Shown piece after piece: positions 1,467 through 64,000 of a stretch of 64,000 nucleotides of DNA (position 1 is the first letter of the stretch; each line of letters begins with the position of its first letter). The notes under the pieces are model-generated. The model saw nothing but the letters and a program-made list of their open reading frames with translations, was not told the DNA's origin and did no database searches. The translations under genes were made by a program, and so were the position numbers. This DNA comes from a virus: the IMG/VR virus record IMGVR_UViG_3300028558_000791, positions 310,001-374,000 of that record, one strand, 5' to 3'.

Positions 1467-4400
1467 ATGGTCACAATAAGGTCAGTAAATGAAATTATTG
1501 CCAACCTGATAGACTTTTTCAGAATGGCACAACCTAACCTGGACACTAAACCAGGTACTGTGGCTAGAGATCTGTTTATCGAAGGTCCATCATCTCAATT
1601 ATCCATTCTGTATGATGAGTTACAAGGTGTCTCTAATAAGCAGTCGCTAAGACTATCTATCGGAACAGATTTAGATAAACTGGGCAAAAACTTTGGGTTA
1701 ATTAGAAAGCAGTCTACTCCATCAACAGGTGTGGCTCTATTAACGTTCTCTTCCTTAAATTCCACTATTAATGTCAATAAGGGCTCTTCTATCTTTACAT
1801 CGGGTGGTTTAGGATTCACTGTGGTCAATGGTATTTCTATTGTTCCATCCAATATCAATTTCTATCGCTCAGTCGCCAGTAAGTTCGCTGCCCAACTTGC
1901 TTTCGTAGGAATCACAGACCAATACGCTGTTGAAGTTACGGTTATCGCCTCTGCTCCAGGTTCATCTGGAAACATTGGCCAATATACGCTATCTAAAATC
2001 AGTATACCAGGTATCAGTAATGTAACCAACGTTGCCAGTTTTGCCGGTGGAACTGACCAGGAAACTGATGCGGCCTTTAGAAACCGTGTTCTATCTACAT
2101 TCAGTGGTTCCAGCGTTGGAACTCAACTCGGTTATTTGAACGCAGCTCTAAGTGTGACTGGAGTTCAGGATGCCGTTGTAATTGAGCCAGGCGACCCGCT
2201 AATGACTCGTGATGGCACTGTAACAGAAACCATCAATGGCGTCTTAACAATCGTTTCAGAGGGTTCTGGAGGTAAAGTAGATATAGCAGTTTTAGGAACT
2301 AACGATGTTGCTAATACTGACACTTTTATTTATCAAGATAAAAGTAATAATAACGATCCTACTAACTCCAAAAATGACTTTGTGCTAGGCCAAATTATTG
2401 CAGATGCTAATTTAAGTGTTTCTCAAAAGAGAGTTAAAGACATAAAGAATGGCCAGCTCCCTGCCCAACCAGTAGATTCTATTATTCAGGTAACTGGCTC
2501 AATCAGTGGTTCTAACTTTATTCCATACTCAGTAGATCAATATGGTCGTGGCTCAGGTAACTATCAACTACAGAAAGATACTGGAGTTTATGGTGGTAGC
2601 CCATTCGGATTCGATACTTTCATTTGGAAGAACAATCAAATTGAATTCCAAGAAGATTTAATCAAGGGTCAGACTAACGGTCAAGATCCAACTACATTTA
2701 CTGAAGTACAACAAATTACCGATGCTCAGCAGCAGTTGGGCGTAACAAATGAAAATAGCACTGTAACTAGCGACCGCACTATCATTCAGTTACTACATAC
2801 TCCAGCCACTAACGTCACCAGAGTCTTCAATACAAATACTGGAGAAAGATATCTAATCACCAATCAGAATTTTGATAATACCGCCCCATTTAACACAACT
2901 GGTAGAATTAAAATTTCCGGTAACACATTACCTTCCCCTAGCGATATTCTTCAGGTAGATTATACTTGGGTTGTAGATTATGATAGATATTCTGATTTCG
3001 ACGGATTGCTTGACACTCAAAATCCAAGAACTGTTACTGATAGTATAGATTGGGGATATCCTTCTGCTATTAAGAGTGAATTTGTTGATTTTACTTTAAG
3101 TCCAGGAAATAACTTTTACGTAGGAACTGCATCCCATCCGGTTGATACTGTCATTTCAACTAATAGTTATCTGCAAGTAGATGGATATGTGCAAATAATT
3201 AAGTCTGGAGCCTTCGTCAATAGACTATCAGTAGTAGTAAGTAACTTAGAGAGTCCTACTACATCAGTAGATAGTATCGTTTGGAAAAACAACGGCACAG
3301 AACTATACAAGACTGCCCAAAATGATGGTTCCTTCTCTAATTTAGCCGGAGTAGTTGGAATTGATATTGTGTATACCACAACTATCATTTTGCCAACTGA
3401 TTCAGCCGCTCAGATAGGAGATAGGGTTTCTATCTACATGAACCTTAATAATATCTTCCAGTCCGGTGCCCTACAAGGTAGCAGTAACGGAGCGCAGATA
3501 ACGATACCATCTTTGTTGGTAGGTTCATCTACTGATAGAATTAACCTAAGAGTAACATACATTGCCAATGTCAATGATCTATTCTCTTCAGCAATTACTT
3601 CCCTTCCAACTAGCAGAGTTGGTAATGGTTATGCCCTTTCCACTAACAGTGGATTCAATAACTTTAGCATTGTCAATGTATCTAGACGTGAGAATCAGAT
3701 TGTTCAGCTCAATCTAAGCAATCAATTTTTCGTAGAACTAAATCTACCAAGCTCTGATTACAATTTGGATGCCGATAAGGTTCTTTCGGTAGTCAGATTG
3801 TCTGACGGCAAGGAACTATGGAATGCTGATCATGAAGGTCAAGCTACCGTTGGAACAGATGGTAATTACCAGCTCATACTAACAGGATTCAATACTCCTG
3901 TCACGGCTGACCGTGTGTTGATAATCTATTATGCTGACGACCTACGTCGCTTCCAGCCATTCAGTTTTGGCAACCAAATCATCAAGACTAAAATCAATAA
4001 TCTAGGTGTAGACCCTATTAGTAAGAACTTCACAGTTCCATTGATTGAGCTAACTGCTCAAGCTAGCGGATTGAATTTCGAAGTAGTTGAGCAAAACAGT
4101 GATACGGTTCTTTTCAATGTATTGGATGGATACCTAACTCCAATCAGCGCTACTCAAGCTAATCTAAATAGCTTAACTGTTAACTTTTCTAGTCTCCCAG
4201 ATTTGACAAACAAGCGTATTAAAATTACGGGAGCTATTGCTCCAAATAATGACGGGTATTATGATATCATCGATTATAATGTGATGACCAATAATATCAC
4301 CATCACCAACATACTAGATCATATTACCGCGAATCAAATTTCCATAGTAAGAGTATTGGATGGTAAAGAGTTATGGAACTATAGTGGCACTATTGATCAA

Positions 4401-5561
4401 GCAAATAATAGGTTGATCATCCCTAAAACTTCCAATGCTGTAGCTAATGACTTAGTTTATGTTATGTTTTTCAACTACAATAACCTAAGAAAAGCGCCAA
4501 CTAGAATCGTAGGAACCATTGTTGACCAAGTTGTCAATGTAGGAGTTATCTCTGTTATTGGAACTAGCATGGCTCTGGCGTCTGATGTTATCTTCACGGC
4601 CACGAGCACTGGCCTCCAGCAGAATTTACAAGAAGCTTTGCGCAAGGCTTTGGGTCTCAGCTCCACAGCCAGCATTCCGTCTACTATAAAGATTGCTAAG
4701 GTTGTTAAGGCTGAGAAGGTTCAGACATTCTCCGCCGGAAGCGATATTGTTACCAGCGTATTGTCTACGTTTGATGTAATTGGAACCACAATTGCTAACA
4801 ATCTATATTTTGCAGATACTATGCAATCCAATCCATTGTTACCAAATCTAGATTTCGTTCTTCCAGCTACCACTAATAATACTTTGACTGGTTCGAATAA
4901 TAACCTACCAACTGTAGGAGATTTGATTAGAGTATCTTTCTATTACACAACTGATAATGACTCTGAAAATCTGTCATATACTCGAATTGGTTCGTTATAT
5001 ACAAATAAGAAGTTCGCGTTGATTAACCAGATTTATGTGAATAGCGGATTTCAAGCGTCTCAGGCTACCAAGTTTAGCGCTACCTCATTTACCAAGCCAA
5101 GTGTCGGTGCCAGATATACAACCTTCTACAATTATCTTGCTCCAAAACAAAATGAAAGAATTCTGATACAGTATAACTATAACAAACTGATCTCAGATAC
5201 TACCTTCACAATTGAAGGAAGCCGCCCTATCAATGCTGACGTGTTAGTCAGATCCGCTAAGTTGATTCTAATTGACCTAACTATGAACGTAGTTATCAAC
5301 CAGAATTTCTTAACGACCTCCGCTACCGTTCTGCAGAACCTGCGTAATCAAATGGTAGCTGCCTTAACTACCACACAGCTAGGTCAAACTATAGACCAAA
5401 TAACGTTAATCAATATAGCTCAAGGCGTACAGGGTATAGATAGGGCAAGAATACTCTTCTTCAACGTAACCGGACTACCAGGTCAAGTACTTAGTATCGT
5501 TGCTAACGAAGACCAATACTTCCAGTCCAATAGCATCACCATAAACACTGAAACAAGATGA
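1467..5561 (+). CDS. Baseplate J-like protein, greatly enlarged
   Basis: This 1364-residue protein carries baseplate J (gpJ/gp47) hallmarks at its ends. Near the N-terminus are a helical region, then 'GTDLDKLGKNFGL' (about 67-79), a beta region ending 'PGSSGNIGQYTL' and 'GGTDQETDAAFRNRVL' (about 195-210), followed by 'GVQDAVV'. The C-terminal 100 residues resemble the J tail. Family members are usually 300-500 residues; the extra length is a Ser/Thr/Asn-rich beta insertion. Two copies of a short motif, 'DGKELWN', occur near residues 780 and 965, and a related motif is in the next gene. A ribosome binding site (AAGGAT) precedes the ATG. The gene overlaps the next by four bases. It should join the wedge to the baseplate periphery. 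Confidence 0.8.
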   Translation: MVTIRSVNEIIANLIDFFRMAQPNLDTKPGTVARDLFIEGPSSQLSILYDELQGVSNKQSLRLSIGTDLDKLGKNFGLIRKQSTPSTGVALLTFSSLNSTINVNKGSSIFTSGGLGFTVVNGISIVPSNINFYRSVASKFAAQLAFVGITDQYAVEVTVIASAPGSSGNIGQYTLSKISIPGISNVTNVASFAGGTDQETDAAFRNRVLSTFSGSSVGTQLGYLNAALSVTGVQDAVVIEPGDPLMTRDGTVTETINGVLTIVSEGSGGKVDIAVLGTNDVANTDTFIYQDKSNNNDPTNSKNDFVLGQIIADANLSVSQKRVKDIKNGQLPAQPVDSIIQVTGSISGSNFIPYSVDQYGRGSGNYQLQKDTGVYGGSPFGFDTFIWKNNQIEFQEDLIKGQTNGQDPTTFTEVQQITDAQQQLGVTNENSTVTSDRTIIQLLHTPATNVTRVFNTNTGERYLITNQNFDNTAPFNTTGRIKISGNTLPSPSDILQVDYTWVVDYDRYSDFDGLLDTQNPRTVTDSIDWGYPSAIKSEFVDFTLSPGNNFYVGTASHPVDTVISTNSYLQVDGYVQIIKSGAFVNRLSVVVSNLESPTTSVDSIVWKNNGTELYKTAQNDGSFSNLAGVVGIDIVYTTTIILPTDSAAQIGDRVSIYMNLNNIFQSGALQGSSNGAQITIPSLLVGSSTDRINLRVTYIANVNDLFSSAITSLPTSRVGNGYALSTNSGFNNFSIVNVSRRENQIVQLNLSNQFFVELNLPSSDYNLDADKVLSVVRLSDGKELWNADHEGQATVGTDGNYQLILTGFNTPVTADRVLIIYYADDLRRFQPFSFGNQIIKTKINNLGVDPISKNFTVPLIELTAQASGLNFEVVEQNSDTVLFNVLDGYLTPISATQANLNSLTVNFSSLPDLTNKRIKITGAIAPNNDGYYDIIDYNVMTNNITITNILDHITANQISIVRVLDGKELWNYSGTIDQANNRLIIPKTSNAVANDLVYVMFFNYNNLRKAPTRIVGTIVDQVVNVGVISVIGTSMALASDVIFTATSTGLQQNLQEALRKALGLSSTASIPSTIKIAKVVKAEKVQTFSAGSDIVTSVLSTFDVIGTTIANNLYFADTMQSNPLLPNLDFVLPATTNNTLTGSNNNLPTVGDLIRVSFYYTTDNDSENLSYTRIGSLYTNKKFALINQIYVNSGFQASQATKFSATSFTKPSVGARYTTFYNYLAPKQNERILIQYNYNKLISDTTFTIEGSRPINADVLVRSAKLILIDLTMNVVINQNFLTTSATVLQNLRNQMVAALTTTQLGQTIDQITLINIAQGVQGIDRARILFFNVTGLPGQVLSIVANEDQYFQSNSITINTETR

Positions 5562-23718: not shown

Positions 23719-25077
23719 ATGCCCGCAACGTCAGTAACCGAACAAGATCAAAAAGAAGAAGTCATGGATGATGTATCCAATGAAGAAGTAAAGCCGTCTG
23801 AAACAGTAGACGTCAGCAAATTAGCAGCACTAAAGGCCAAGAGCCAAGCCAAGCAAGAGGAGAGTAAGATGGCAGCAAAGATTGTGTCAAAGAAAGACAG
23901 AAGTATCACATTAGGAGTTCTAGGATCAGGCCAGGCCGGTTCCAGAATTGCTGAAGCTTTCTACAAGCTCGGCTATGATGCTGTCGCAGTCAACACTGCC
24001 ATGCAGGATCTCAAGTTTATTGATATCCCAGATTCTAACAAGCTGCTGCTTGAGTACGGTTTGGGTGGAGCTGCCAAGGAAACCGAAATTGGTCGTGCGG
24101 CTGCTGAAGCTCATCGTGGAGAGATTCTCCAATTGGTTAATGAGAAGCTACAAAACTCGCAGGTCAACGTACTTTGCTTGAGTTTGGGTGGCGGTTCTGG
24201 TGCAGGTTCTTGCGATACTATGGTAGACATTCTATCATCTCTAGGTAAGCCACTTGTCGTTGTCACTGTACTTCCAATGGATACAGAAGACGCACAGACC
24301 AAGGCTAACGCATTAGAAACTCTTTCTAAGCTAGCTAAGGCAACACAAACTAAGAAGGTCAATAACCTAATTGTAGTAGACAATGCTAAGATTGAAGCTA
24401 TCTACCACAATATTAGCCAGGTTGATTTCTACGGCATTGCCAATAAAGCCATCGTAGAACCAATTGATATCTTCAATACACTTTCATCCTTACCATCAGC
24501 AGTCAAGGGACTAGATCCAATGGAATGGGGAAAGCTCTTTACAGATGGTGAGGGTTTAACTGTCTATGGTGAATTGACCATTGAAAACTTTGCCGAAGAT
24601 ACTGCTATTGCAGAAGCTGTCGTCAATAACTTGAATGGTAACTTGCTAGCTGGCGGTTTCGATCTAAAGCAGTCTAGATATGTTGGCGTTATCATTGCTG
24701 CCAACAAAGAAGTCTGGTCCAAAATCCCAAGCTCCAGTATTACTTATGCTATGGCCATGGTTAATGATCAATGTGGATCACCAAAGGGCGTATTCAAAGG
24801 TATCTACACTATAGAGACCCCAGACCCAGTAGTCAAGGTATACTCTATGTTTACTGGTCTCGGCTTACCAGAATCACGTATCACTCAACTAAAGAAGGAT
24901 ACGGCAGCCATGCAACAGAATGTCAAGGGTAAGGATGAGCAGCGCAACCTATCTCTCAATCTAGACACCGGTACTAATGAAACTGTCTCTGCTGCCCAAA
25001 AGGTTAAAGAGAAGATTGCGGCTAAGTCTTCTGCTTTCGGTAAGTTGGTTGGTGGTGTTGTTGACAGGAGAAAATAA
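23719..25077 (+). CDS. Tubulin/FtsZ-like GTPase
   Basis: This 452-residue protein has the tubulin-superfamily GTP-binding layout. 'GVLGSGQAGSRIAEAF' (about 66-81) is the first phosphate loop, 'VAVNTAMQDL' the next loop, and 'GGGSGAGS' (157-164) the tubulin signature. 'GLDPMEW' (264-270) could be the T7 loop with Asp and Glu kept but the usual Asn replaced. An N-terminal extension of about 55 charged residues precedes the domain. Phages are known to carry tubulin homologues (PhuZ, TubZ) that position DNA or segregate replicons; this one looks closer to FtsZ/CetZ by eye. AGGAG precedes the ATG, and the stop overlaps the next gene. It likely forms filaments in the infected cell. Confidence 0.82.
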   Translation: MPATSVTEQDQKEEVMDDVSNEEVKPSETVDVSKLAALKAKSQAKQEESKMAAKIVSKKDRSITLGVLGSGQAGSRIAEAFYKLGYDAVAVNTAMQDLKFIDIPDSNKLLLEYGLGGAAKETEIGRAAAEAHRGEILQLVNEKLQNSQVNVLCLSLGGGSGAGSCDTMVDILSSLGKPLVVVTVLPMDTEDAQTKANALETLSKLAKATQTKKVNNLIVVDNAKIEAIYHNISQVDFYGIANKAIVEPIDIFNTLSSLPSAVKGLDPMEWGKLFTDGEGLTVYGELTIENFAEDTAIAEAVVNNLNGNLLAGGFDLKQSRYVGVIIAANKEVWSKIPSSSITYAMAMVNDQCGSPKGVFKGIYTIETPDPVVKVYSMFTGLGLPESRITQLKKDTAAMQQNVKGKDEQRNLSLNLDTGTNETVSAAQKVKEKIAAKSSAFGKLVGGVVDRRK

Positions 25078-41376: not shown

Positions 41377-42193
41377 ACGTCTGACAACACTCTCCAAACT
41401 GATAAGTGGGTTTTACCACTGTAACAGCAGAAAATCTAGTATTCAGAATGGCAGTAAGCTCGCTAACCGTTGGAAAGTGATGTTTAGCCGTTTTGCCCCT
41501 ATATACATCTATGGTAGCAACATCGGCCGGAGAGAATCCGTTATGTGGAGACGCTTTAAGTATCATCTGCACGGCCTTCCAGACATCATCTTGGCTGACG
41601 CCCTCTTCAAATGATCTTTGGAGCGCCATAGCTACCCTAAATTTGAATTCATGAAAGTTGATATGATAACCGTCACTATAACCATCATGAACATCGTGAA
41701 GAATAGTTGTAACGGTTTCTCTTCTTTCGGGCATTACAAAACAGCGAGTTAGAAAAATGCCATTATTATCTAGCGCCAAAGATACTCTAGTAACTAATCT
41801 TGACACACCTTCTGGATTGAAAAATACTAACGATCCATCTGCCAAAACAATGTCTTTTGATCTATTTACTATGTAGTAGTTAAACCAGTCCCCATGAACG
41901 GCGGTACGTTGGTTAGGAATATCTCCTGGCCAGACATACTGAATCATGGCCTCAGACTTATCTATAGCTAATAGGTTAGTGGGAGTTGGGAAATTCATAG
42001 TAGCAATTTCAGGAGTAACTCCTAATAAAACAGCTTGAGCATATCCGTCAACAGGCGCATATCCATCTGAGGACCAAACACCAAGTGAATCCTCTAAGAT
42101 AGTTGTATCTTCGATATTTGGTCGCAATGGTGGTGCCCAATGGTCCCACATGGTGGCAATGGCATTCCATGTATCTTGTAAGTCATTTGGCAT
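41354..42193 (-). CDS. SAM-dependent methyltransferase-like protein
   Basis: A 279-residue protein resembling class I methyltransferases. 'QAVLLGVTPEIATM' could be the first glycine-poor loop, and 'NLLAIDKSEAMIQYVW' shows the acidic end of strand 2 ('AIDKSEAM') that binds SAM. 'DIVLADGSLVFF' is a plausible strand 4. The N-terminal 40 residues are unusual. No target is identifiable. A GGAGA site precedes the ATG. The gene overlaps the PaaK-like gene by 11 bases, so the pair is translated together, and both lie downstream of a fibre gene. Confidence in the fold is moderate, in the substrate nil. Confidence 0.6.
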   Translation of the reverse strand: MPNDLQDTWNAIATMWDHWAPPLRPNIEDTTILEDSLGVWSSDGYAPVDGYAQAVLLGVTPEIATMNFPTPTNLLAIDKSEAMIQYVWPGDIPNQRTAVHGDWFNYYIVNRSKDIVLADGSLVFFNPEGVSRLVTRVSLALDNNGIFLTRCFVMPERRETVTTILHDVHDGYSDGYHINFHEFKFRVAMALQRSFEEGVSQDDVWKAVQMILKASPHNGFSPADVATIDVYRGKTAKHHFPTVSELTAILNTRFSAVTVVKPTYQFGECCQTFIAQAPR

Positions 42194-43586
42194 TGATATT
42201 CTCCGGCTCTACAACGATTATTTTCAATTTTCCATTAGGACGTTCGATAACTTCGCTCTTCTTTATATCGACATGAACAGTAGATTCTACCTCTTCTTGA
42301 ATGCATTGAATCATTTTTAACCCATGTTCGTCGGTCCACTCTTTATTAGGAACTACTCTTAATGTGAAGTTATCGATATTGTGTTGAATAACTTGGAACT
42401 GACGAACCCCGCCTATTTGACGTATACCTAACATAATTCCAGTAGATACTTTACGACGATTGCCGGCTAAGAATAGCATTGGATGCCTTCTACCATTGAT
42501 ATGTTTTAGAAGTGGTAAACCGCGACCACAGGAACAAGGCTCATTGGCAAGCGTTACTTCGTCAATGATATCGTATCTAATAAATGGATTAATAAAATTG
42601 GTTAAGCTTGTAACAACTAGCTTACCAGTTTCTCCAGGCTTACATGGATTATTTTGTTCATTCAGAACTTCTACGTATACACTCTCTGCATGGATATGTA
42701 ATCCATTACCAGTCGGACAAGAAGATGCAATGTAACCGGTTTCGTTAGCCGAATAAAGATTGACTACTTTGGCTCCAAAAGTTCTTTCAAGTCTTTCTTT
42801 AATTTGTGGAGTAAGAGTCTCTCCAATGGTTTGGATTGTTTCCAAGTCTGGTAGTTTTCTACCACTCTCTTCAACCAAATCAGCTAACACTTCTAAATTA
42901 GAAGGCATACTGATTAGATAATTTGGATTAACAGTTCTGAGCCAAGTTAATTGGACTTTAGGGTCTTGACGTATATCCATACCATGAACTGGTACGCATT
43001 TGAAGACACTGTATCCATGAACTTTTGGTAGCCAAGTAGGTATTGAAATGCCCTTAACAGCAATTTCATAGTCGCTCTTGTTCATACCAATCAATCTAAT
43101 AGATGCCATACGTTTCATGGGGTCCATGCCACCCCATTCAAAATCACGCATAGCCATTGCTTGCCACCACAAATTATCTCTATCTGTTTTGTATAGAGAG
43201 ATAGGCGTGCCGTTAGTTCCTGAAGTATGTATAGGCGAGGGGCTTGGAATCATCCCTTCTGGTAGTTTACTAACCTTAATACTAGAGTAATGATCTTGAT
43301 ACTTCTTGCGAGTTAGTAGTGGTATTTTTCTAAACTCTTGAAAACTTGTAATTGGTTTCCTTCCAATACCACACTGATCTAACATCAGCCTATAGTAAGG
43401 CGAGTTATCATAAGAGTGTTGTAGTAGATTATTTATCTGTTGAAGTTGGGCCTGCTCTAATTGTTCCGGACTTAACCATTGTGTTTTAGTTAGTTCAGTA
43501 TAGGCGCTAACAACAGACGTAAACTCAGGAATAGGAACCATCGGCCAGGTTGAGCCTGGAGTGGATGTAAACTTAAAAAAACTCAT
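42183..43586 (-). CDS. PaaK/CapK-like adenylate-forming enzyme
   Basis: This 467-residue protein resembles phenylacetate-CoA ligase and CapK-type proteins. 'IHTSGTNGTPISLYKT' (about 120-133) is the ATP-binding loop, 'NLYSANETGYIASSCP' the next family block and 'FIRYDIIDEVTL' the ribose-contact motif, followed by 'CSCGRGLPLLKHINGRR'. The family activates a carboxylate as an acyl-adenylate and usually passes it to CoA or another acceptor. Its closest relatives outside catabolism occur in capsule and surface-polymer clusters. It lies 23 bases after a fibre gene and overlaps the methyltransferase-like gene. The acid it activates is unknown; no obvious ribosome site was seen. Confidence 0.78.
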   Translation of the reverse strand: MSFFKFTSTPGSTWPMVPIPEFTSVVSAYTELTKTQWLSPEQLEQAQLQQINNLLQHSYDNSPYYRLMLDQCGIGRKPITSFQEFRKIPLLTRKKYQDHYSSIKVSKLPEGMIPSPSPIHTSGTNGTPISLYKTDRDNLWWQAMAMRDFEWGGMDPMKRMASIRLIGMNKSDYEIAVKGISIPTWLPKVHGYSVFKCVPVHGMDIRQDPKVQLTWLRTVNPNYLISMPSNLEVLADLVEESGRKLPDLETIQTIGETLTPQIKERLERTFGAKVVNLYSANETGYIASSCPTGNGLHIHAESVYVEVLNEQNNPCKPGETGKLVVTSLTNFINPFIRYDIIDEVTLANEPCSCGRGLPLLKHINGRRHPMLFLAGNRRKVSTGIMLGIRQIGGVRQFQVIQHNIDNFTLRVVPNKEWTDEHGLKMIQCIQEEVESTVHVDIKKSEVIERPNGKLKIIVVEPENINAK

Positions 43587-49818: not shown

Positions 49819-51027
49819 ATGAAAGATTTTGATGTCGGTATTATTGGGGCTGGTGTAGCGGGCGCTTTTGCAACTTTGAAGTTAGCAAAAGACCATAAAA
49901 ACGTTAAAGCTATTCTTTTTGATTTGGGTAGACCTCCTATGAAGCGCAGAAGACAACTGGAAGGTTGGCTTGGCTGCTTGCCAAATAGTGATGGAAAACT
50001 ATATCAATCTGATGTGTCCAAAGTTGCAGAACTTACTGGACTTCGCAGAGCCAAATCGGCTCACACTTGGTTTCGACATGTATTAGAACAAGTCGATGAA
50101 TTCAAAGTAATCAAAGACCGCGCTCCTACAACGTCTTTGGAAAAGAAAATCAAGAAGCTAGGATATGATATTGCTCTCAACGATCATATTCAGATCTATC
50201 CAAAAGAGATTCATGCCCTATCTAAACACATGGCTGAACTTATTGAGGTAGGCAAGAATATTACTTTCAATTTTGATAGTGAAGTTGTTAGAATAGTTAA
50301 GCAGAAGAATGTCTTCGTTATCACTACTGAAGAACATGAATATCGCTGCAAGAAAATTATCATTGCTGTTGGTAGAAGTGGCTGGCGTTGGGCTAGAGCA
50401 CTATATGGTAGCTTTGGAATTGTAGATAATAATGACATTGCTCGTTTTGGTATTCGTGTAGAAACTAACTCTAGCGTTATGAAGGATTTCAATAGATCCA
50501 ATTGTACTCTTACTAAGTCCGACCTAGAGATAGGACCATTATCTTGGTATGGTACTGTTATTCCAGAAGACCATATAGATTTAGCTATTTCAGCTTTCCG
50601 TTCCAATGAGAATAGATGGAAGACGGATAAAGTTTCGTTTAATCTAATAGGTAATAGACCATTTCCTGATACTGGATTTGAACAGACAGATAGAATTGGA
50701 AAACTAACTTTCGTTCTTGCCAATGACAGAATTATTAAAGAAAGAGTCTCTACTATTTTAACTGGTAAGAGTCGAATATCTATTATCCCAGAGTATGAAT
50801 GGTTAAAGCCAGTCATTACTGAGCTATCTGCTATTATACCAGAGATTACTACCAAAGCTTACTTCCATGTTCCTACTATCGTACCATCTGCTCCCAAGAT
50901 AAACATTGGAGATAATTTGGAAACTGAAGTAGATGGAATGTTTGTGGCTGGCGAAAGCGCTGGTATCCATGGTATATTATCAGCAGGCATCATGGGCATC
51001 ATTGCGGCAGATGCCGTATGCAAATGA
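49819..51027 (+). CDS. FAD-dependent oxidoreductase-like protein
   Basis: This 402-residue protein opens 'DVGIIGAGVAGAFATLKLA', a GxGxxG dinucleotide site, and 'AILFDLGRP' places an acidic strand-2 residue as usual for FAD. The middle 'CKKIIIAVGRSGW' matches the second Rossmann part of the HI0933/BaiN and NAD(P)/FAD dehydrogenase type, and 'GMFVAGESAGIHGILSAGIM' matches the C-terminal FAD-binding GD-like motif. It should perform a flavin redox reaction; the substrate is unknown. The ATG has a close GAGGG. It sits between a fibre gene and an exonuclease gene, an unusual setting for such an enzyme in a phage. Confidence 0.8.
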   Translation: MKDFDVGIIGAGVAGAFATLKLAKDHKNVKAILFDLGRPPMKRRRQLEGWLGCLPNSDGKLYQSDVSKVAELTGLRRAKSAHTWFRHVLEQVDEFKVIKDRAPTTSLEKKIKKLGYDIALNDHIQIYPKEIHALSKHMAELIEVGKNITFNFDSEVVRIVKQKNVFVITTEEHEYRCKKIIIAVGRSGWRWARALYGSFGIVDNNDIARFGIRVETNSSVMKDFNRSNCTLTKSDLEIGPLSWYGTVIPEDHIDLAISAFRSNENRWKTDKVSFNLIGNRPFPDTGFEQTDRIGKLTFVLANDRIIKERVSTILTGKSRISIIPEYEWLKPVITELSAIIPEITTKAYFHVPTIVPSAPKINIGDNLETEVDGMFVAGESAGIHGILSAGIMGIIAADAVCK

Positions 51028-54893: not shown

Positions 54894-55670
54894 ATGGCAG
54901 ATTTGGATGACAGCTATTTCGAGACTCTTATTAATCAAACAAAGGGTCTGTTTGGCAATAAAAACCAGCAGAGTGCGCCGGCCTCCCCAACCCCAGGCGG
55001 GCAGGGAAAGCAATTTGTAGTGTCTCCTGGAGGCTTCACGGCCCCAATCCATGGTGCCTGGCACAACTTGGGCGGATTCGCCCCCAGCATGAAGCGCTAC
55101 GATGATGATCCAAAGGCTGCAAAAGGCCGTGGACATTTTGGTGTTGACATGAGCGCTGCTGCCGGAACCCCAGTCTATGCCCTCACTTCAGGCACAGTCA
55201 ATACTGTAGGTACTGACCCAATGGGTGGTAACATCGTAGGCGTTCAACATGCCAATGGTCTATGGTCCTATTACGCCCATCTTTCTACTGCCAGTGTGCA
55301 GAAGGGGGATAAGGTAGATTCCAATACTGTAATTGGTACCGTAGGTAATACGGGCAATGCCGGTAACCCCAATGACCCCCTAAAGACGCAAGAGGGTGGA
55401 AGAACCTGGCCTCACTGTCATTTTGGTATTAAAGAGAATGGTAGCTGGGTTGACCCTGCCAAGTACATTACTATTCCCGCTTATGATCCTAGTTTTGCTA
55501 AGAATCCATCCAAGTATCAAAAATTTTGGGTATCTGATCAGGCCAAGCAAGATGCAGAAGCATTCAACATGAAAGACCACCTCTCTAAACGTAGAGTGGC
55601 CTTCTCTAAAGATGTTGATACATTAATGAAGGTTGCGTTTGAGTACGCTAAAGCCATTAAGAAAACTTAA
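54894..55670 (+). CDS. M23-family zinc endopeptidase
   Basis: In this 258-residue protein the LytM/M23 zinc site is visible: His81 and Asp85 in 'HFGVDMSAAAG', His129 in 'YAHLSTAS', His174 and His176 in 'PHCHFG'. 'GTPVYALTSGTV' is the usual strand. The enzyme cleaves peptide crosslinks of peptidoglycan. A Ser/Pro/Gln-rich N-terminal arm precedes the domain and a helical C-terminal arm follows; no signal peptide is seen, so a virion location is as likely as a lysis role. Its TAA overlaps the convergent gene stop (TTAA shared). Confidence 0.85.
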   Translation: MADLDDSYFETLINQTKGLFGNKNQQSAPASPTPGGQGKQFVVSPGGFTAPIHGAWHNLGGFAPSMKRYDDDPKAAKGRGHFGVDMSAAAGTPVYALTSGTVNTVGTDPMGGNIVGVQHANGLWSYYAHLSTASVQKGDKVDSNTVIGTVGNTGNAGNPNDPLKTQEGGRTWPHCHFGIKENGSWVDPAKYITIPAYDPSFAKNPSKYQKFWVSDQAKQDAEAFNMKDHLSKRRVAFSKDVDTLMKVAFEYAKAIKKT

Positions 55671-55987
55671 CGATCAATCCAGGTAAGGACAACCTCTATA
55701 TTAGAGAGCGCGTGCCCACTGGGCGGAATCAATAGTGGTGCGCCCATCGAGAACCATACTTCATACCTATTGGTGCTAGTATTAAATCCTTGCAACTTGA
55801 AATAGGTATTGAATCCGTATGTTACTCTAGTGGTCGGATTAAACGCTACAAATTGAATCGATGGATTATAGGCAGTGGTAACAAAATTGCTTTGGTAATC
55901 ATGTATTCCTTGACTTCCTGAATATTGTCCAGTCCAAGTTTTAAATAACACATTACCGAAAACACCTAAATCTGTAGTGGTTGACAT
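55667..55987 (-). CDS. Small tail-array protein, paralogue of 63068 gene
   Basis: A 106-residue beta-rich protein. The C-terminal 'FKLQGFNTSTNRYEVWF' and 'PPSGHALSNIEVVLTWIDR' closely parallel 'YKLSGFNQNTSSYETWI' and 'PPSGNTLSNIKIVARWIQ' in the gene at 63068, so the two are paralogues. AAGGATAAAC precedes its ATG. It closes the leftward array. A small tail or fibre-associated role is inferred. Confidence 0.62.
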   Translation of the reverse strand: MSTTTDLGVFGNVLFKTWTGQYSGSQGIHDYQSNFVTTAYNPSIQFVAFNPTTRVTYGFNTYFKLQGFNTSTNRYEVWFSMGAPLLIPPSGHALSNIEVVLTWIDR

Positions 55988-55996
55988 AGTTTATCC

Positions 55997-58753
55997 TTAT
56001 GGGTTCAATCCGCCGGCACCATTCCATCTCATATAGATTCCATTTTGGAGATGTAGAAATTGTGCGGTTCCATTAACAGTACCACCACCAGTATATGGAT
56101 TTAGTCCATTAGTATTGTTTAATGTAAAGTGAGTATTATCAACTACTGTAATAACAAAAGTTCCATTAGCAACAGTATTGCCTGTTACTCCAGTAATGAC
56201 CACCGTCTGTCCAGTTACTAATGTATTAGTTGCAGATGTTGTAATTTGGATTGGTGATGTAGCGGTCGCTCCAGTTACCGTTAGGGATGTCGTGTTATCG
56301 GTGCTTAAAGTAAAGGTTCCAAAGTTAGCTCTTCCTTGTCTAATATTTGGCGCAGTTCCCATAAATCTCTGATTGATAGTATTTACAGTTAAACCACCAA
56401 TAGCAATTGGTAAGCTACCTACGTTATCTGTTGCTGTTCCGCCCCAAATTTCCCAAGGCAATAACTCTGTAGTTCCTGTAAATGGACTATCTCCGGCATT
56501 CGTGGCGTAAGCTGGACTTGCACCAGAAACTCCATCCGCATTTGCCCAGCCCGAAATTAAACAGGTTTCAGGTGCAGAATCTCTGAACGTGTAGCCAAAA
56601 TTATTGGAGTTACCCACTCTCATTTGAATTCCACTATAATCAACAGTATTAACTCCACCATAGACAAATGGTCTATTGGTAGTTGGAGCTAATGGCGATG
56701 GCTCATTGCTAGGTATTCCCATTAGAAGGAGTCCATTGGCGCCTGCACCCTGTGTTCTAGCATACATGAAAACTGATTGACCAAGATCATCACCCATTAC
56801 AGTCATACGATAAGCAATAGCTCCAGTTGTTGAAGCTCCAACAACCGATGCCGCATAAGGTGAAACGGGATTGTTTCCTAAATATTGCGATATGCTGCTA
56901 GTTATTCCGCCTATAGGCCAGTCACCATTTAAGACTCCGCCGAAACCAACACTTACTGATGTTGGAGGCATATTTGGAATGTTAAATGGTTCAACGGCCA
57001 TTCTAGATTGCCATGCAGTTGAGTGCGGGCTTTGTAGAATAATCTTACTATTAAATGAATATCCATCACCACCAGTATATCCAATACGACTTATAGATCC
57101 GGAAGTGGTAGAGGTACCATTACCAATAGACCCATTGAGTGTAAACGTATTACTTCCATTAGTTGTAATTGTCCAAGTGCCATTAGCATTTGTATTTCCA
57201 GTCACACCAGCTATAGTAACTCTTTGACCAGTTAAAAATTGATTGATCGTATTCAAATTAGGTGTAACTTGAATAGGTGCCGTGTTTGTTGTTGATAGCA
57301 TTCCTAAACCAGTAATAAAAGTATTATTTGGGTAGGACGCGTAAAATGAAACTTGAGTTTCAACTTCATACAACCACCAATCCATAGTCTCGTTAGGTGG
57401 AGTATCAGTAGAGCGATAATCAATTGTATAGCCGTTGAAATTATTAACTGTGTTACCAGTAGTCATTGTGCCAGTTCCACCAGTACATCCTGTAAATTGC
57501 GTGCCGCCTGAAATTCCGGTATATGCTACTGTCTGTACCCCTGTAGTTGTAAAGACAAAAATGTTTCCGCTAGTTGGGAATCCGGCCGTGGAAGCGACAT
57601 TTATAGTAGACTGTGGAAGTGATGCATTGTTAGAGCCGACAGCAATAGTGGTGCTGTTGCCAGTATTAGCGGCAGAGATTTTGAAAGCGCCAGAGTTTTT
57701 GGTTGTATAACTGGAACTTTTTAGTACTAGTATTCTACCTGCATCTCCTGTAGTTGGTGCAGTTCCAGATACTACAACTCTAGCAGATTGTGGAATGCTA
57801 ACAGCATAGACTGAGTTAGCGCCAGTCACATTTATCTGTGCTCCCGTTCCTCCAGCAACAGTACCAGATGCGACTAGCATACCTGTAGGTGTTAGAGTTC
57901 CAGAAAAAGCGGTGTAGGCAGCGCCATCAGCCTTAGAACCAACCAGCGTTAATTGTGTCGGGCTAGTAACAACAGTTGGCCATAGTCCATTAAGATTGGC
58001 TGTACCGGCAATTCCGGATGTTAAAACATACTGGCCACTCGTTACTCCGTGTGGTACTTGAGTTGTAATGGTTGCATACTGATTAAGCGTAGTAGTAGCG
58101 GCCGATATTTTAGTTGGTCCACAGAAGATAGTGCTTGCAGCAGAGGTGACAGCATTACCTGTAGCCATAGAACCGGTGCCACCTAGACATCCAGTAAAGG
58201 TCGTTGCACCAATTCCAGTATATGTTACTAGTTGAGTGCCTGCGGAGGTAACGACATAGATAGATCCACTAGTAGGAAATCCTGCTGTTGTGGCTACGTT
58301 GATAGTTGCTTGCGGAAGAGATGCTCCGTTAGATCCTGAAGTTATTGTTGTGGCTTGACCAGATGACATACTACCAGTTCCACCAGTGCAATTTAAGAAT
58401 GCATTAGCTGTAGTACCGGAATATTTGACAGCCTGAATCCCACCAGAAGTATTGACATAAATAGTTCCAGAATTAGGGAAACTAGTTGTTGATATTACAT
58501 TGATGATAGATTGCGGAAGTGATTGTCCATTTGACCCAGCAGCTACGGAGGTTCCATTGCTGGCCGTAAATGTTTGCACATTTGAGTTGTTGATATCCCA
58601 TCCAGTATTAGAAACAACAGAATGACCTAATATTTTGTGCATGAAGACTGGCAACAAATATTGCTGTGTAACCCAGAAGTAATTGACACCACCACCAGGA
58701 GCAAAATATCCAGTGGTTGCCATAGGATAGTCTCTTAGAATATGAACAGCCAT
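55997..58753 (-). CDS. Modular tail protein of the leftward array
   Basis: A 918-residue protein with at least three copies of module A ('SLPQATINVATTAGFPTSG' ... 'FTGCLGGTGSMATGNAV') and two copies of an FCCH-like module B ('GVTGNTNANGTWTIT', 'FTLNGSIGNG'). A GRILVLKS segment also occurs in the 60737 gene. The C-terminal 'GTAPNIRQGRANFGTFTL' and 'NGIYMRWNGAGGLNP' resemble the ends of its neighbours. AGGAGG precedes the ATG. Such modules are typical for phage tail and receptor proteins of variable length. No enzyme motif is present. The ATG overlaps the next gene's stop. Confidence 0.68.
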   Translation of the reverse strand: MAVHILRDYPMATTGYFAPGGGVNYFWVTQQYLLPVFMHKILGHSVVSNTGWDINNSNVQTFTASNGTSVAAGSNGQSLPQSIINVISTTSFPNSGTIYVNTSGGIQAVKYSGTTANAFLNCTGGTGSMSSGQATTITSGSNGASLPQATINVATTAGFPTSGSIYVVTSAGTQLVTYTGIGATTFTGCLGGTGSMATGNAVTSAASTIFCGPTKISAATTTLNQYATITTQVPHGVTSGQYVLTSGIAGTANLNGLWPTVVTSPTQLTLVGSKADGAAYTAFSGTLTPTGMLVASGTVAGGTGAQINVTGANSVYAVSIPQSARVVVSGTAPTTGDAGRILVLKSSSYTTKNSGAFKISAANTGNSTTIAVGSNNASLPQSTINVASTAGFPTSGNIFVFTTTGVQTVAYTGISGGTQFTGCTGGTGTMTTGNTVNNFNGYTIDYRSTDTPPNETMDWWLYEVETQVSFYASYPNNTFITGLGMLSTTNTAPIQVTPNLNTINQFLTGQRVTIAGVTGNTNANGTWTITTNGSNTFTLNGSIGNGTSTTSGSISRIGYTGGDGYSFNSKIILQSPHSTAWQSRMAVEPFNIPNMPPTSVSVGFGGVLNGDWPIGGITSSISQYLGNNPVSPYAASVVGASTTGAIAYRMTVMGDDLGQSVFMYARTQGAGANGLLLMGIPSNEPSPLAPTTNRPFVYGGVNTVDYSGIQMRVGNSNNFGYTFRDSAPETCLISGWANADGVSGASPAYATNAGDSPFTGTTELLPWEIWGGTATDNVGSLPIAIGGLTVNTINQRFMGTAPNIRQGRANFGTFTLSTDNTTSLTVTGATATSPIQITTSATNTLVTGQTVVITGVTGNTVANGTFVITVVDNTHFTLNNTNGLNPYTGGGTVNGTAQFLHLQNGIYMRWNGAGGLNP
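57447..57655 (-). repeat. Module A, third copy in the 55997 gene
   Basis: This copy encodes 'SLPQSTINVASTAGFPTSG' and ends in 'CTGGTGTMTTGNTV', separated from the tandem pair by about 490 bases. Confidence 0.62.
58144..58560 (-). repeat. Module A, two tandem copies in the 55997 gene
   Basis: Two neighbouring copies of about 65-70 codons encode the SLPQ...GFPTSG...GGTG...TG pattern. A third copy is at about 57447-57655. Confidence 0.65.
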
Positions 58754-60729
58754 TACGTTCCTCCTGCCAGTACGTTATACGGTAGGATAGAACCATCCCA
58801 AGGAAGTAATATTCCATTAACTAAATGGATAAACTCACCACTATTTCCAACTAAATAAAATTGTGGTAATGTACCGCCCGTAAACTGCATTGGTCTCATT
58901 CTAGCTCTTGCAAATGAATACTGTCCAGCAGTTGAAGATACTGACATTAAAGCATCACTATATATAACTTGTCCAGTTTTATTTTGATAGGATAGGAATG
59001 TTGATAGGTTAAATCCTACAGTATATGCTGGCAAGATATTTCCTGGAGTACCTATAGTGCCTCCCGTATCACCGCCAAGATTTCTTGTTATCAATTGATG
59101 GGATCTAGTAACTCCATCAAATCCGACCATACCAAAAGATGTAGAAACGGAATCTGTAGTGTTACTTGCAGTTAACCCATTGCCACCAACTAGTATGGCT
59201 AGTAAATTAGGATCTTGTGCTTGCGTATACAATCTAGTTGGAGTGCAAGCCATAAAGTATAATGCTTTAGCGTTCGCTGCACCGTTGGAGTTAGCAGATT
59301 GAACATGGCCAAAGAAAAAGTCAGTATCGGCGAAAATTGTAACGAACCCACTTACGTTTATGTTTGCGCCGTTCAAAGTCACACCGTTAGCACTTGTTCT
59401 TTCTGTCATAGCTGAATTAGAGCCTGTTCCAGAAAAAGTAGCTCCAGACCAGCTACCATTAGGAGATCCTGCCATTCCAAAAGTTCCGAAAGCATTAGCC
59501 GCTCCTCTTAAGAAGAATTGAAATTGGCTTGGGGCTTGTCCAAAATTGATGTTAGCAGCTCCATTCATGGTTCCTACAAAATAGTTACCATTAGCTACTG
59601 CCAACTGAGATGCTGCTACAATATCAATTACTCTGTAGCTAAGTGAAGCTCTAGATGTTAGATTGTTTTTAAGAGTTGATATGTCTGTTGTTCCGCCGCT
59701 AAATGGAACCAATTGCAATTGTGTATTTGATGGCACAGCTACAATCTTGTAAATAGAGTCATCTGTACTTGCCGGATTAACAGATACATTTCCATTAGTG
59801 AACATAGTGCCGGTGCCTCCAGTACATCCAGTAAATATCTGTCCCGTAACAGCATTACCAGTAGTCATAGCTCCAGTACCACCCGTACATCCAGTAAAGC
59901 TAGTTGCAGTTACTCCAGTATATGTTACTACTTGTGCGGCGTTAGCATTCGTAATTACATTGATAGTTCCACTTGTTGGAAATCCGGTTGTGGATCCTAC
60001 ATTGATTGTTGCTTGAGGAAGTGATTGTCCATTAGATCCGACTGCAATAGTAGTATTAACTATTCCAGTATAAGCAACTGTTTGAGTACCAGCATTTGTT
60101 ACTACAAATATGGTTCCACTGTTTGCGAACCCAAGAGTGGATCCTACATTTATATTTGACTGTGGTAGTGTTTGTCCAACAGAAGCCTGACTAACTCCTG
60201 TATTAGCTCCAGCCAACCAGACAACTACATGCTTACCTATCATAGTAGCTGGACTAAATGGAGTTGAGGCAGAAGCTGTTAAGGTGCTACCGATAGAAGA
60301 GGTGACTCCATCGTTTCCTACAGCCAAAACACTTGCTCCCTCAAAAAATCCGGCCGGACCGCTGGTTGGAGAAATTGGCATTCCTCCCGGTACAAATACT
60401 TGACCACCACTAGTATAAGTGGCATTGCCAACAGCTCCATTCAAACTGAATTGAGTAGAGCTTACAACGGTAACGTTCCAACCACCATTGGCATTGGTAT
60501 TTCCACCTACGTTATATACGCCGACTAATTGGTTATTAGATAGATTATGGGGAGTGGAGGTAGTTATTGTAATTGGGTTGGCATTAGAGGCTGCAATTAC
60601 GTTAAGCATTTGGTTAGTGCCATTGACGCAATACGCCCAAAACTCATAGCACAACTTCATGAAGATAGGGATATCCTTACCATTCGTTCCTGTTGTGTAT
60701 TGTAAACCTCTAAGTAATTTTAAAGCCAT
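58753..60729 (-). CDS. Modular tail protein of the leftward array
   Basis: A 658-residue protein with a conserved short opening ('MALKLLRGLQYTTGTNG') resembling the array neighbours. It holds an N-terminal module B ('GGNTNANGGWNVTVVS', 'FSLNGAVGNATYTSGG') and a nested pair of module A. The C-terminal 'EFIHLVNGILLPWDGSILP' matches its neighbours' ends. AAGGATAAA precedes the ATG, with the same leader seen at the 55987 gene. Likely a tail or receptor-binding component. Confidence 0.66.
   Translation of the reverse strand: MALKLLRGLQYTTGTNGKDIPIFMKLCYEFWAYCVNGTNQMLNVIAASNANPITITTSTPHNLSNNQLVGVYNVGGNTNANGGWNVTVVSSTQFSLNGAVGNATYTSGGQVFVPGGMPISPTSGPAGFFEGASVLAVGNDGVTSSIGSTLTASASTPFSPATMIGKHVVVWLAGANTGVSQASVGQTLPQSNINVGSTLGFANSGTIFVVTNAGTQTVAYTGIVNTTIAVGSNGQSLPQATINVGSTTGFPTSGTINVITNANAAQVVTYTGVTATSFTGCTGGTGAMTTGNAVTGQIFTGCTGGTGTMFTNGNVSVNPASTDDSIYKIVAVPSNTQLQLVPFSGGTTDISTLKNNLTSRASLSYRVIDIVAASQLAVANGNYFVGTMNGAANINFGQAPSQFQFFLRGAANAFGTFGMAGSPNGSWSGATFSGTGSNSAMTERTSANGVTLNGANINVSGFVTIFADTDFFFGHVQSANSNGAANAKALYFMACTPTRLYTQAQDPNLLAILVGGNGLTASNTTDSVSTSFGMVGFDGVTRSHQLITRNLGGDTGGTIGTPGNILPAYTVGFNLSTFLSYQNKTGQVIYSDALMSVSSTAGQYSFARARMRPMQFTGGTLPQFYLVGNSGEFIHLVNGILLPWDGSILPYNVLAGGT
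59803..60175 (-). repeat. Nested pair of module A in the 58753 gene
   Basis: One copy seems to be interrupted by another: its front half ('TLPQSNINVGSTLGFANSG' to 'TVAYTGI') is followed by a full second copy, and only then comes the missing rear half ('QIFTGCTGGTGTMF'). The inner copy spans about 59843-60062. Confidence 0.6.
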
Positions 60730-60736
60730 TTTATCC

Positions 60737-63058
60737 TTATGCTACCACTGGCGGACCGCCCCACAATAACCACAAACCCCTTCTCATATGTTGTCCAACA
60801 AGATCAGTGGTTGTGGTAAATTCAGAGAAATTAGCTCTTCCTTCCCTTATATGCGCAATAGTTCCCAGGAACCTTCCTTCTAGTCTGGGGAAGCCATAAT
60901 TGATGGCTGCCGAGCCGTTCCAAGTGTTTACAATTCCAGCCATTACATCTACTGGATACAGTTCTGTTCCGCCAAGCCAAGGGGATTCGCCAGCGCTACC
61001 ATCAAAAATTGGACTGCCTTGTTGTCCATTTCCAAAAATATAAGCCAACAATGTAATATTCAGTGTAACTGGTAATGGAACTTGGCCAATAGCTGACTGA
61101 ATAGTTATGCCTTGTGTATTACCGCCTCCAATATTTCCCGGATACCAACTCATATCGTTTAAGCTATTCCCGCTACCTGAACTTAATCCCGAACCAATAA
61201 CAAATAATCTAGCTTCATTGTTTGGTGGTAATGGAACTATTTCCTGAGCTGGTAGTCCAAATGTTAGGAAGTATGATCTTGGAGTACTGGCATTTCCTGG
61301 TCTACGACCAAATATTGAAACACCATAACCATCATCATCTCCTGCTAAAGTAATTCTATAAGGCATAGAATTAGTTCCAGCAGGGATATTTGTATTATCA
61401 CCAAATCCTAAAGTTCCACCTTGCAAATTATTGCTATTTGAATTGTAATATAGTGCAGTGTGAAGATGTGGCCCTCCAACCGCAAAGTCTCCAGAAGCAT
61501 TGCCACCAAATCCAGGAGCAAAACTTATTAACGGGCACTCAGAGCTAACGCCCCCAGTTCCAACTGAAGAATCATCAACTGTTTCATGACAAATTCTAAC
61601 TTGCCAGGCCAAAGCATGCGGGCTTTGAAGAATAAGTCTTGGTGTCGTAGAAGTTCCATTACCCCTATATTGTAAAGTAGTATTTCCATTAGAAGCACCT
61701 TGAATTGGCGAAGAGCCATCTTTTTCATATAGATACCAATTCATACTATCAGATGGTTCTGCTGGCGGAAGATTAGGTGAGAAGTAAATTGTACCACCAG
61801 TTGACATGGATCCAGTTCCTCCCGTACATCCTGTGAATGTAGTCCCGGTCGATCCTGTGTATGAAACTTTTTGTACACCAGCAGATGTTGTTACATAGAT
61901 GGTTCCACTGTTAGGATTGAATCCTGCTACCACTGCATTACCAGTACTCATAAGGCCAAACCCACCTAAACATCCTGTGAATGTGGTCGCTGTAGTTCCA
62001 GTATAGCTAACTAACTGTTTACCATTATCAGTTGAAACCCAAATGTTTCCGGCAGTAGGAAATCCCGTAGTAGAAGCTACTGTGATAGTACCGGCAGTCG
62101 CTGTTGGCAATCTGGTCGCATTGGAGGCGGATGCAATTGTTGTTGTAGCAGTAGTTGTTGAAGCGACGTTAATAGTTGCTTGCGGCAAAGATTGACCGTT
62201 AGATCCAGAAGCAATCGTAGTGGTAGTTGCAGAAACTATTGTAGAGAATCCAATGACACCTGTACCACCCGAACATCCTGTGAAAGTGGTAGCCGTTATT
62301 CCGGTATAGCTAACTGTTTGCCTACCGGTACTAGTATAAACAAATAGAGTTCCGCTACTTGGAAATGGTGTAGTGGATGGGACCGTTAAGGTAGTTTGAG
62401 GTAGAGTAGTTGCATTGTTAGCTACACCATTTCCAGTTCTCATAGCTCCAGTGCCACCCGTACAACCGGTGAAAGTAGTAGCCGTTTTTGCAGTATAGGT
62501 TACAGTTTGCACGCCGTTATCAGTATACACTAAAATAGTTCCACTAGCGGGAAATACTGTTGTTGAGCTTACGTTAATAGTGCTTGTAGGAAGAGAAATG
62601 GCATTAGAGCTAGATATGATTGTTGTATCTGGAGTAATTGATGTCCCACTTCTATAATCAATGACATAAGAATTAGTGCCAGTATCAAATCCGGTAATTA
62701 GAAAACAACCTGAATTAGATTGTGGATTAGCCGTACTTCTTAGGACTAGTATTCTACCCTTATCGGTAGCAGAAACTGTTCTAGTCCCTGATGGAATAGA
62801 AACGTTCAACTCGGTATTCAAACCTAGATTGATTCCGGCTCGTGAGCCGCCAGCAAAAGTTGGGGCACCAGTAGGAGTAGAGTCGGCGGTAGAGATTAGT
62901 AACGTTCCAACAGAATTTATGTTGTAGTTCGTATCACCAACATAGGTATACAACAAAACTCTTCTTAAAAAGATCGTTGATAGATACGAGCCAATGAATG
63001 TAGAGGTTGTAGTATTGAAATTCTGTGTTACATAATCTCTGAGTAAATGCCTTACCAT
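60737..63058 (-). CDS. Modular tail protein of the leftward array
   Basis: A 773-residue protein with four copies of module A between about 61795 and 62632, one of them nested. 'GRILVLRSTANPQSNSG' recalls the 55997 gene. The C-terminal 'TIAHIREGRANFSEFTTT' and 'MRRGLWLLWGGPPVVA' match the end of the partial gene at 63559. TAAAGGTAAAA precedes the ATG. It is the central gene of the array, likely a tail or receptor-binding protein. Confidence 0.66.
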   Translation of the reverse strand: MVRHLLRDYVTQNFNTTTSTFIGSYLSTIFLRRVLLYTYVGDTNYNINSVGTLLISTADSTPTGAPTFAGGSRAGINLGLNTELNVSIPSGTRTVSATDKGRILVLRSTANPQSNSGCFLITGFDTGTNSYVIDYRSGTSITPDTTIISSSNAISLPTSTINVSSTTVFPASGTILVYTDNGVQTVTYTAKTATTFTGCTGGTGAMRTGNGVANNATTLPQTTLTVPSTTPFPSSGTLFVYTSTGRQTVSYTGITATTFTGCSGGTGVIGFSTIVSATTTTIASGSNGQSLPQATINVASTTTATTTIASASNATRLPTATAGTITVASTTGFPTAGNIWVSTDNGKQLVSYTGTTATTFTGCLGGFGLMSTGNAVVAGFNPNSGTIYVTTSAGVQKVSYTGSTGTTFTGCTGGTGSMSTGGTIYFSPNLPPAEPSDSMNWYLYEKDGSSPIQGASNGNTTLQYRGNGTSTTPRLILQSPHALAWQVRICHETVDDSSVGTGGVSSECPLISFAPGFGGNASGDFAVGGPHLHTALYYNSNSNNLQGGTLGFGDNTNIPAGTNSMPYRITLAGDDDGYGVSIFGRRPGNASTPRSYFLTFGLPAQEIVPLPPNNEARLFVIGSGLSSGSGNSLNDMSWYPGNIGGGNTQGITIQSAIGQVPLPVTLNITLLAYIFGNGQQGSPIFDGSAGESPWLGGTELYPVDVMAGIVNTWNGSAAINYGFPRLEGRFLGTIAHIREGRANFSEFTTTTDLVGQHMRRGLWLLWGGPPVVA
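61795..62632 (-). repeat. Module A, four copies including a nested one, in the 60737 gene
   Basis: Two full copies are followed by one that stops after 'SLPQATINVASTT', an inserted copy (about 61930-62160), and the rest of the interrupted copy ('AGFNPNSGTIYVTTSAG'). Confidence 0.62.
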
Positions 63059-63067
63059 ATTTTACCT

Positions 63068-63562
63068 TTACTGGATCCATCTTGCTACTATTTTTATGTT
63101 GGAAAGAGTATTTCCAGAAGGAGGAGCGAAGAAAACATTCAAATCTACATTGGGTGGGTTTCTAGTTGGATCAAACACTTCAGGACGCGGCACGATTTCT
63201 TCTGAAATTATCCATGTTTCGTAGGAGCTAGTGTTCTGATTAAACCCAGATAGTTTGTAATATATCTGTTGGTCTTTAGGATGAGGATAAACTGTGTTAG
63301 TGTCTAGTTGAACTGTTTGAAAATTCAATTCTGGAATGGCACTATAGTTATCTATAAACCCATTATATCCTTGATCTCTGAATGAGCTTGATAGGTTTTG
63401 GACTGTATTGCCTCCGTAATTGCCATTATTACCTTCATACAACACATTGAATTCGCCTTGTGAACCTTTTGGTAGTACAGATCCGCCAAAATTTTGATCG
63501 AATCCTTGATAGGGAAGAGTGCTTCCGGCAGTGTTAATTCCTAAATCAGCGGAGTTACTCAT
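63068..63562 (-). CDS. Small tail-array protein
   Basis: A 164-residue protein starting at the ATG at 63562, which overlaps the upstream stop (ATGA); a start at 63586 would extend it by eight residues. Near the N-terminus 'GSQGEFNVLYEGNNGNYGG' is beta-rich. The C-terminal region is paralogous to the gene at 55667 (see there). Function in the tail inferred from the array. Confidence 0.63.
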   Translation of the reverse strand: MSNSADLGINTAGSTLPYQGFDQNFGGSVLPKGSQGEFNVLYEGNNGNYGGNTVQNLSSSFRDQGYNGFIDNYSAIPELNFQTVQLDTNTVYPHPKDQQIYYKLSGFNQNTSSYETWIISEEIVPRPEVFDPTRNPPNVDLNVFFAPPSGNTLSNIKIVARWIQ

Positions 63563-64000
63563 GGTACGACCTGTGGACCATTCCAAGTTACATAAACACC
63601 ATTTCTCATATGCTGCCAGGAATGATTGGCATCGGTGGTTAGTGAATACTCACCAAAGTTAGATCGGCCCGCTCTTAGATGAGGAACAGTTCCAATAATT
63701 CTTGGTTCAAGAGGAAATAAGGTTTGTGAGACGCCGCTATAACCACTAAAAGTAGTTGCTGTTCCATTAACAATATCTACCGAGAATAGTTCTGTGGCAT
63801 TTAACCATACACCATCGGTTGCGCTACCATCGAATCCGGGGCTATTAAATTGACCTACCCCTGTAGTATAAGTCCAAAGAGACGGCACACTACTGCATGG
63901 TAGTCCGCCCTGTGATTGACTAACGCCTTGACCTAGATTGGAATCGGGTGTCGATCCGTTGCTGGCAAATACGTTTCCTGGAGACCAACCAACATTATTT
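63559..64000 (-). CDS. Modular tail protein, 5' end outside window
   Basis: The reading frame is open to the right edge, so the start lies beyond the window; the GTG at 63888 is not needed as a start. About 146 residues are visible. The end 'TVPHLRAGRSNFGEYSLTTD' and 'MRNGVYVTWNGPQVVP' parallel the ends of the 60737 and 55997 proteins. It is the fourth large member of the tail array. Confidence 0.64.
   Translation of the reverse strand, partial: NNVGWSPGNVFASNGSTPDSNLGQGVSQSQGGLPCSSVPSLWTYTTGVGQFNSPGFDGSATDGVWLNATELFSVDIVNGTATTFSGYSGVSQTLFPLEPRIIGTVPHLRAGRSNFGEYSLTTDANHSWQHMRNGVYVTWNGPQVVP

Follow-up and report, generated by a model that had tools for sequence, protein, structure and literature searches.

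Complete copies of a small phage domain lie inside other copies of the same domain in adjoining genes of a viral record

Three adjoining minus-strand genes carry copies of a module about 68 residues long (consensus TTIAxxSNGxxLPQxTINVxSTTGFPTSGTIxVxTxxGxQxVTYTGTTATxFTGCTGGTGTMxTGxxV) in the window analyzed here, the 64,000 nucleotides at bases 310001-374000 of the 480,838-bp IMG/VR viral record IMGVR_UViG_3300028558_000791. The genes, at 55997-58753, 58753-60729 and 60737-63058, are named below by their first coordinates. Module copies are about 70-80% identical in DNA, their boundaries as inserts are almost constant (TTI... to ...GNAV), and a single copy used as query finds 25 matches within the record. 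The module matches no Pfam family, and neither it nor the locus finds a match among INPHARED phage records. In two of the genes one copy of the module is interrupted by a complete homologous copy, and the outer halves together make one module, so that the arrangement is one of recursive self-insertion.

Window coordinates of the nest parts, all on the minus strand, were computed from profile matches. In nest 1 (58753 gene) the N-terminal part of the outer module (60055-60201, profile 1-51) is cut after ...TVAYTGI, a complete inner module follows (59848-60054, profile 1-68, 104 bits), and the C-terminal part of the outer module resumes at QIFTGC... (59785-59847, profile 46-68). In nest 2 (60737 gene) the outer N-terminal part (62150-62221, profile 1-24) ends at ...INVASTT, the inner module is again complete (61931-62143, profile 1-68), and the outer C-terminal part begins at AGFNPN... 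(61790-61924, profile 24-67). Both splits are where the original prediction, made from the sequence alone, had placed them, and its expectation that the outer copy would read correctly once the inner one was removed holds as well: the joined outer halves score 82.1 bits against the module profile in nest 1 (positions 1-68) and 90.8 bits in nest 2 (positions 1-66), rather than being unrelated short domains. The cut in the outer module falls at profile position ~50 in nest 1 and ~24 in nest 2. Simple tandem duplication is excluded for the nested pairs, as had been argued.

True tandem pairs do stand beside the nests. The 60737 gene has a complete module at 62423-62626 followed by a second at 62252-62422 (profile ~5-62), and the 55997 gene has a pair at a site designated S0 (copy 1, 58352-58552, absent in L005, L009 and L099; copy 2, 58148-58351) along with a single module at site S1 (57446-57652), all on the minus strand. 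Such pairs are what one would want to see if the nests were truncated tandem arrays, in which at least three modules lay in a row and in-frame deletions removed the inner ends of the flanking ones. Left and right partial copies, however, have complementary cut points in about ten cases, and deletions would need to have fallen at matching codons every time. Over ten nested pairs (orthologs collapsed) the end of the opening part correlates with the start of the closing part at r = 0.95 (random re-pairing, P = 1.7e-4), and over eight pairs true partners when joined beat re-paired halves in module score (P = 0.0016; rejoined range 47-97 bits), pairs of the same cut class being interchangeable in both tests.

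The original prediction took in only part of the nesting. The deepest case lies just past the window end, in a 1260-aa open reading frame (ORF) on the minus strand at G000:375298-379077 (L001:10299-14078), where a simple nest comes before a large one. In profile positions the large nest runs through openers 1-28, 5-23, 1-35, 1-37, [1-68] and then closers 41-68, 39-67, 23-68, [1-68], 24-66. Taken as brackets this order is balanced, with mirrored cut sites, and would correspond to five self-levels; more than one level of nesting thus appears to be present, and the mirrored cuts are a further difficulty for truncation by deletion. The same order is found in orthologs of the ORF in L117 (1257 aa) and L086 (1255 aa), at ~68% identity. 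The nest of the 1260-aa ORF lies within an apparently split domain resembling FCCH (PF16190). In the two orthologs the apparent split, 3-46 / 46-64, encloses a full FCCH copy as well as the entire nest. The deepest case thus apparently comprises five self-levels and one FCCH-like level.

Comparison with relatives, which the original prediction had proposed as a check for gain or loss of inner copies, shows one and the same site without a module in some phages, with a single one in others and with a nest in others again. For the 58753 gene this site (just before sTDDsIYrI) is empty in L194, whose protein is 60% identical to that of the window, and in the distant L196 (32%); it holds a single module in L005 and a nest in L004, the window, L198 and L112/L007. 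Because the distant outgroup L196 is empty, empty is likely the ancestral state here. Site S1 in the family of the 55997 gene has no module in L004, one in the window, L009 and L099, and a nest in L005; sites S0, S2 and S3 also vary in module presence. Occurrence of all three states at two sites argues for true in-frame insertions and against truncated tandem repeats; orthologs with one uncut module at precisely that position (L005; L009, L099), together with empty outgroups, disfavor truncation in particular, and we regard that explanation as highly improbable. In similarity to the orthologous single copy of L005 (listed as L095), the rejoined outer module of nest 1 ranks only fifth of 97 and does not stand out, so the orthology of that single copy rests on the flanking scaffold. 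The nests are not assembly errors, since the same ones occur at the same positions in the separately assembled L004, L007/L112 and L198.

The places where modules are cut or inserted appear to be loops. An AlphaFold2 (AF2) model of the 151-residue nest 1 segment reached a mean predicted local distance difference test score (pLDDT) of 93.9 and a predicted template modeling score (pTM) of 0.81, and its DSSP string puts the strands of the inner copy at about 17-19, 29-34, 40-45 and 51-53 in profile numbering. All observed cut sites (~24, ~36-40 and ~46-50) lie between model strands, so that about ten independent nests would use only three inter-strand loops. In the 60737-type genes L194:3901-6252 and L010:4011-6542 one host module carries separate inserts in two different loops; the L085 ortholog (G003) has inserts in one loop only.

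FCCH-like domains appear to share this behavior. Against the Pfam gathering cut-off of 29.5 bits for E1_FCCH (PF16190), the 55997 gene (53.3 bits) and the 1260-aa ORF (39.1 bits) score above, while the 58753 gene scores below, at 21.2 bits; its FCCH-like domain (60397-60591, minus strand) is absent from the L194 and L196 orthologs. Site S3 of the 55997 family falls within an FCCH-like domain, in its last hairpin. Another such domain, at the C-terminus of L010:4011-6542, is missing from the corresponding scaffold loop (TLTTDN / QHLRRGIY) of L004:2039-4318 and L198:3183-5477, and presence and absence at one loop suggest that the FCCH-like domain also comes and goes in loops. Other, unrelated proteins of this giant phage also contain the module, namely a long repeat-rich putative fiber (L002:165-2816), a second fiber-like protein (L002:3314-7654) and a glycine-rich protein with a PHROG match to "tail fiber assembly" (L003:9139-10416).

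The closest genome copy to the inner module of nest 1 is not its own outer copy but the tandem copy at 58148-58351 in the adjacent gene (81.8% DNA identity). Ranked by similarity to its own outer copy, the inner copy comes 8/12, 8/12, 1/12, 7/12 and 2/7 in five nests. The rank of 1/12 belongs to the 1260-aa ORF, in whose first nest the two outer halves are the nearest match to the copy they enclose (77% identity), as would be expected if N-terminal and C-terminal parts had each been doubled (N-N-C-C) and only looked like a nest, with no whole module ever inserted. In three of the four nests tested in this genome (ranks 8, 8 and 7 of 12) the inner copy is not closest to the outer one, and the whole module is also inserted in unrelated scaffolds with empty alleles; half-module duplication is accordingly a very unlikely account.

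Short target repeats at the splits, which the original prediction had suggested looking for, do not rise above chance: the longest string shared by the flanks is 5.4 nt, versus 4.9 +/- 1.2 in mismatched pairs, although old insertions may have lost their repeats. This leaves unsupported a dedicated in-frame mobile element, for which a recombinase, reverse transcriptase or homing nuclease of its own would mobilize the module DNA in the manner of the Rickettsia palindromic elements. Near-constant insert boundaries, the many invaded genes and the GIY-YIG and HNH (HNH_3) nuclease genes of the record would suit such an element, but selection for whole domains predicts constant boundaries too, and the nuclease genes are far from the module loci. 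RVT_1, Y1_Tnp and Resolvase find no match in the record (which may be incomplete), so it lacks a match to the reverse transcriptase expected with a diversity-generating retroelement target. We consider a dedicated element quite unlikely. Also unlikely is the broader proposal of a self-propagating coding element, in which a specific and still-active phage mechanism would copy the module in frame to new coding sites, the module would tolerate reinsertion into itself, and adhesin genes would grow as trees and not as chains.

The reading we prefer, and think probable, is that a ~68-residue beta-strand domain of phage virion proteins has been copied in frame, repeatedly, into surface loops, including those of its own copies, spread by recombination and tolerated because of where it lands. 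Presence and absence at fixed sites, complementarity of split halves and reuse of an occupied site are observed, and cuts fall at loop positions in the model. The repeated intragenic insertion process envisaged in the original prediction is borne out by complementary cuts in about ten nests, by empty, single and nested orthologous sites, and by presence or absence of modules elsewhere on the same scaffolds. Phage recombination, or template switching, between repeated coding sequences rich in Thr, Gly and Ser would generate new copies (a RecA-like gene is found elsewhere in the record), and these would land in loops of unrelated scaffold domains, of the FCCH-like domain, or in the three inter-strand loops of the module, repetition producing Russian-doll nests. 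Most products would die and only whole-module loop insertions would persist, because the insert would fold alone and the host domain could still close around it; domain termini lying close together would explain the tolerance.

Several points weigh against this reading. In two of the five nests the inner and outer copies are each other's first- or second-ranked match, as local duplication would also give, and the ~70-80% DNA identity among copies leaves donor and recipient uncertain. No junction footprint was found, so the recombination step is one that we infer. The rejoined halves of nest O2 reach only 47 bits, and the C-terminal half of the split FCCH-like domain is weak, at 6-8 bits (about 8 in the 1260-aa ORF). 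The AF2 input for nest 1 had only three sequences for the outer halves, and the 466-aa five-level nest, also modeled with three sequences, gave a pLDDT of 30; that model was not used.

A virion surface or adhesion role for the module proteins is plausible, as is the receptor type supposed in the original prediction, and is the natural reading of their context. Contractile-tail genes are present in the record, with tail sheath PHROGs at L003:11762-14590 and Baseplate_J at 1467-5561 of the window, and neighboring ORFs have Laminin_G_3 lectin-fold domains. At a permissive threshold, 27 of 31 module members match a baseplate wedge family in PHROGs and 22 of 31 a virion structural protein family; the nested structure model matches predicted virion and baseplate proteins. 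Sequence matches in the Protein Data Bank (PDB) to Pizza/PknD propellers (E down to 7.6e-9) were rejected as homology, since they add up ~12 bits from each repeat within a short stretch. Nesting would add domains as side branches, by which the displayed surface would be diversified or extended with no longer a main shaft. Two short minus-strand ORFs (55667-55987 and 63068-63586) flank the trio of module genes, as if each ORF accompanied one of these genes, and have in common a C-terminal motif recognized by eye, kLxGFNxxtxxYExW...PPSGxxLSNIxxvxxWI. Elsewhere in the window are a tubulin/FtsZ-type GTPase with a TubZ-like C-terminal domain (23719-25077, Pfam), a protein with an AMP-binding-enzyme domain (42183-43586) and an FAD/NAD-dependent oxidoreductase-like protein (49819-51027).

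Rickettsia in-frame palindromic elements are short, palindromic and repeatedly inserted into coding sequence. Here, by contrast, an entire folded domain is inserted, and the region contains no inverted repeats as long as 30 bases or longer. Domains likewise move among phage structural proteins in the mosaicism of tail fibers and other tail proteins (PMC10684548); that paper covers domain combinations, and the word "nested" is absent from its main text. The tandem BACON arrays of crAss-like phages (PMC6949934) likewise evolve in copy number as a repeated phage-protein domain; those copies lie head-to-tail, whereas module copies here interrupt one another. No report of self-nested domains in phages was found in the open-access literature, subscription papers being outside the search. 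HABAS domains provide a precedent for recursive self-insertion: they are inserted into other HABAS domains in Si3 of cyanobacterial RNA polymerase beta' (PMC11515920) and reach a six-level nest in Prochlorococcus rpoC2 (PMC13114784). As there, a small beta domain lies inside its own copies, several levels deep in one polypeptide, and occurs in unrelated proteins as well; the genes here are of phage virion type and do not encode RNA polymerase, and the likeness to HABAS (CATH 2.40.50.100) is drawn at the level of architecture. The best fold match of the module in the PDB is a phage GP4 portal-tail chain (E = 0.11). New here are that the setting is a phage, that an FCCH-like domain is apparently a further split host, and that empty, single and nested states exist together. 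How whole domains get inside other domains is an open question, and virion surface proteins could diversify by branching rather than by lengthening. The Si3 insertions are regarded as ancient and mostly retained, their mechanism unclear (PMC11515920), whereas in these related phages the empty, single and nested alleles coexist and make order, site choice and mechanism testable.
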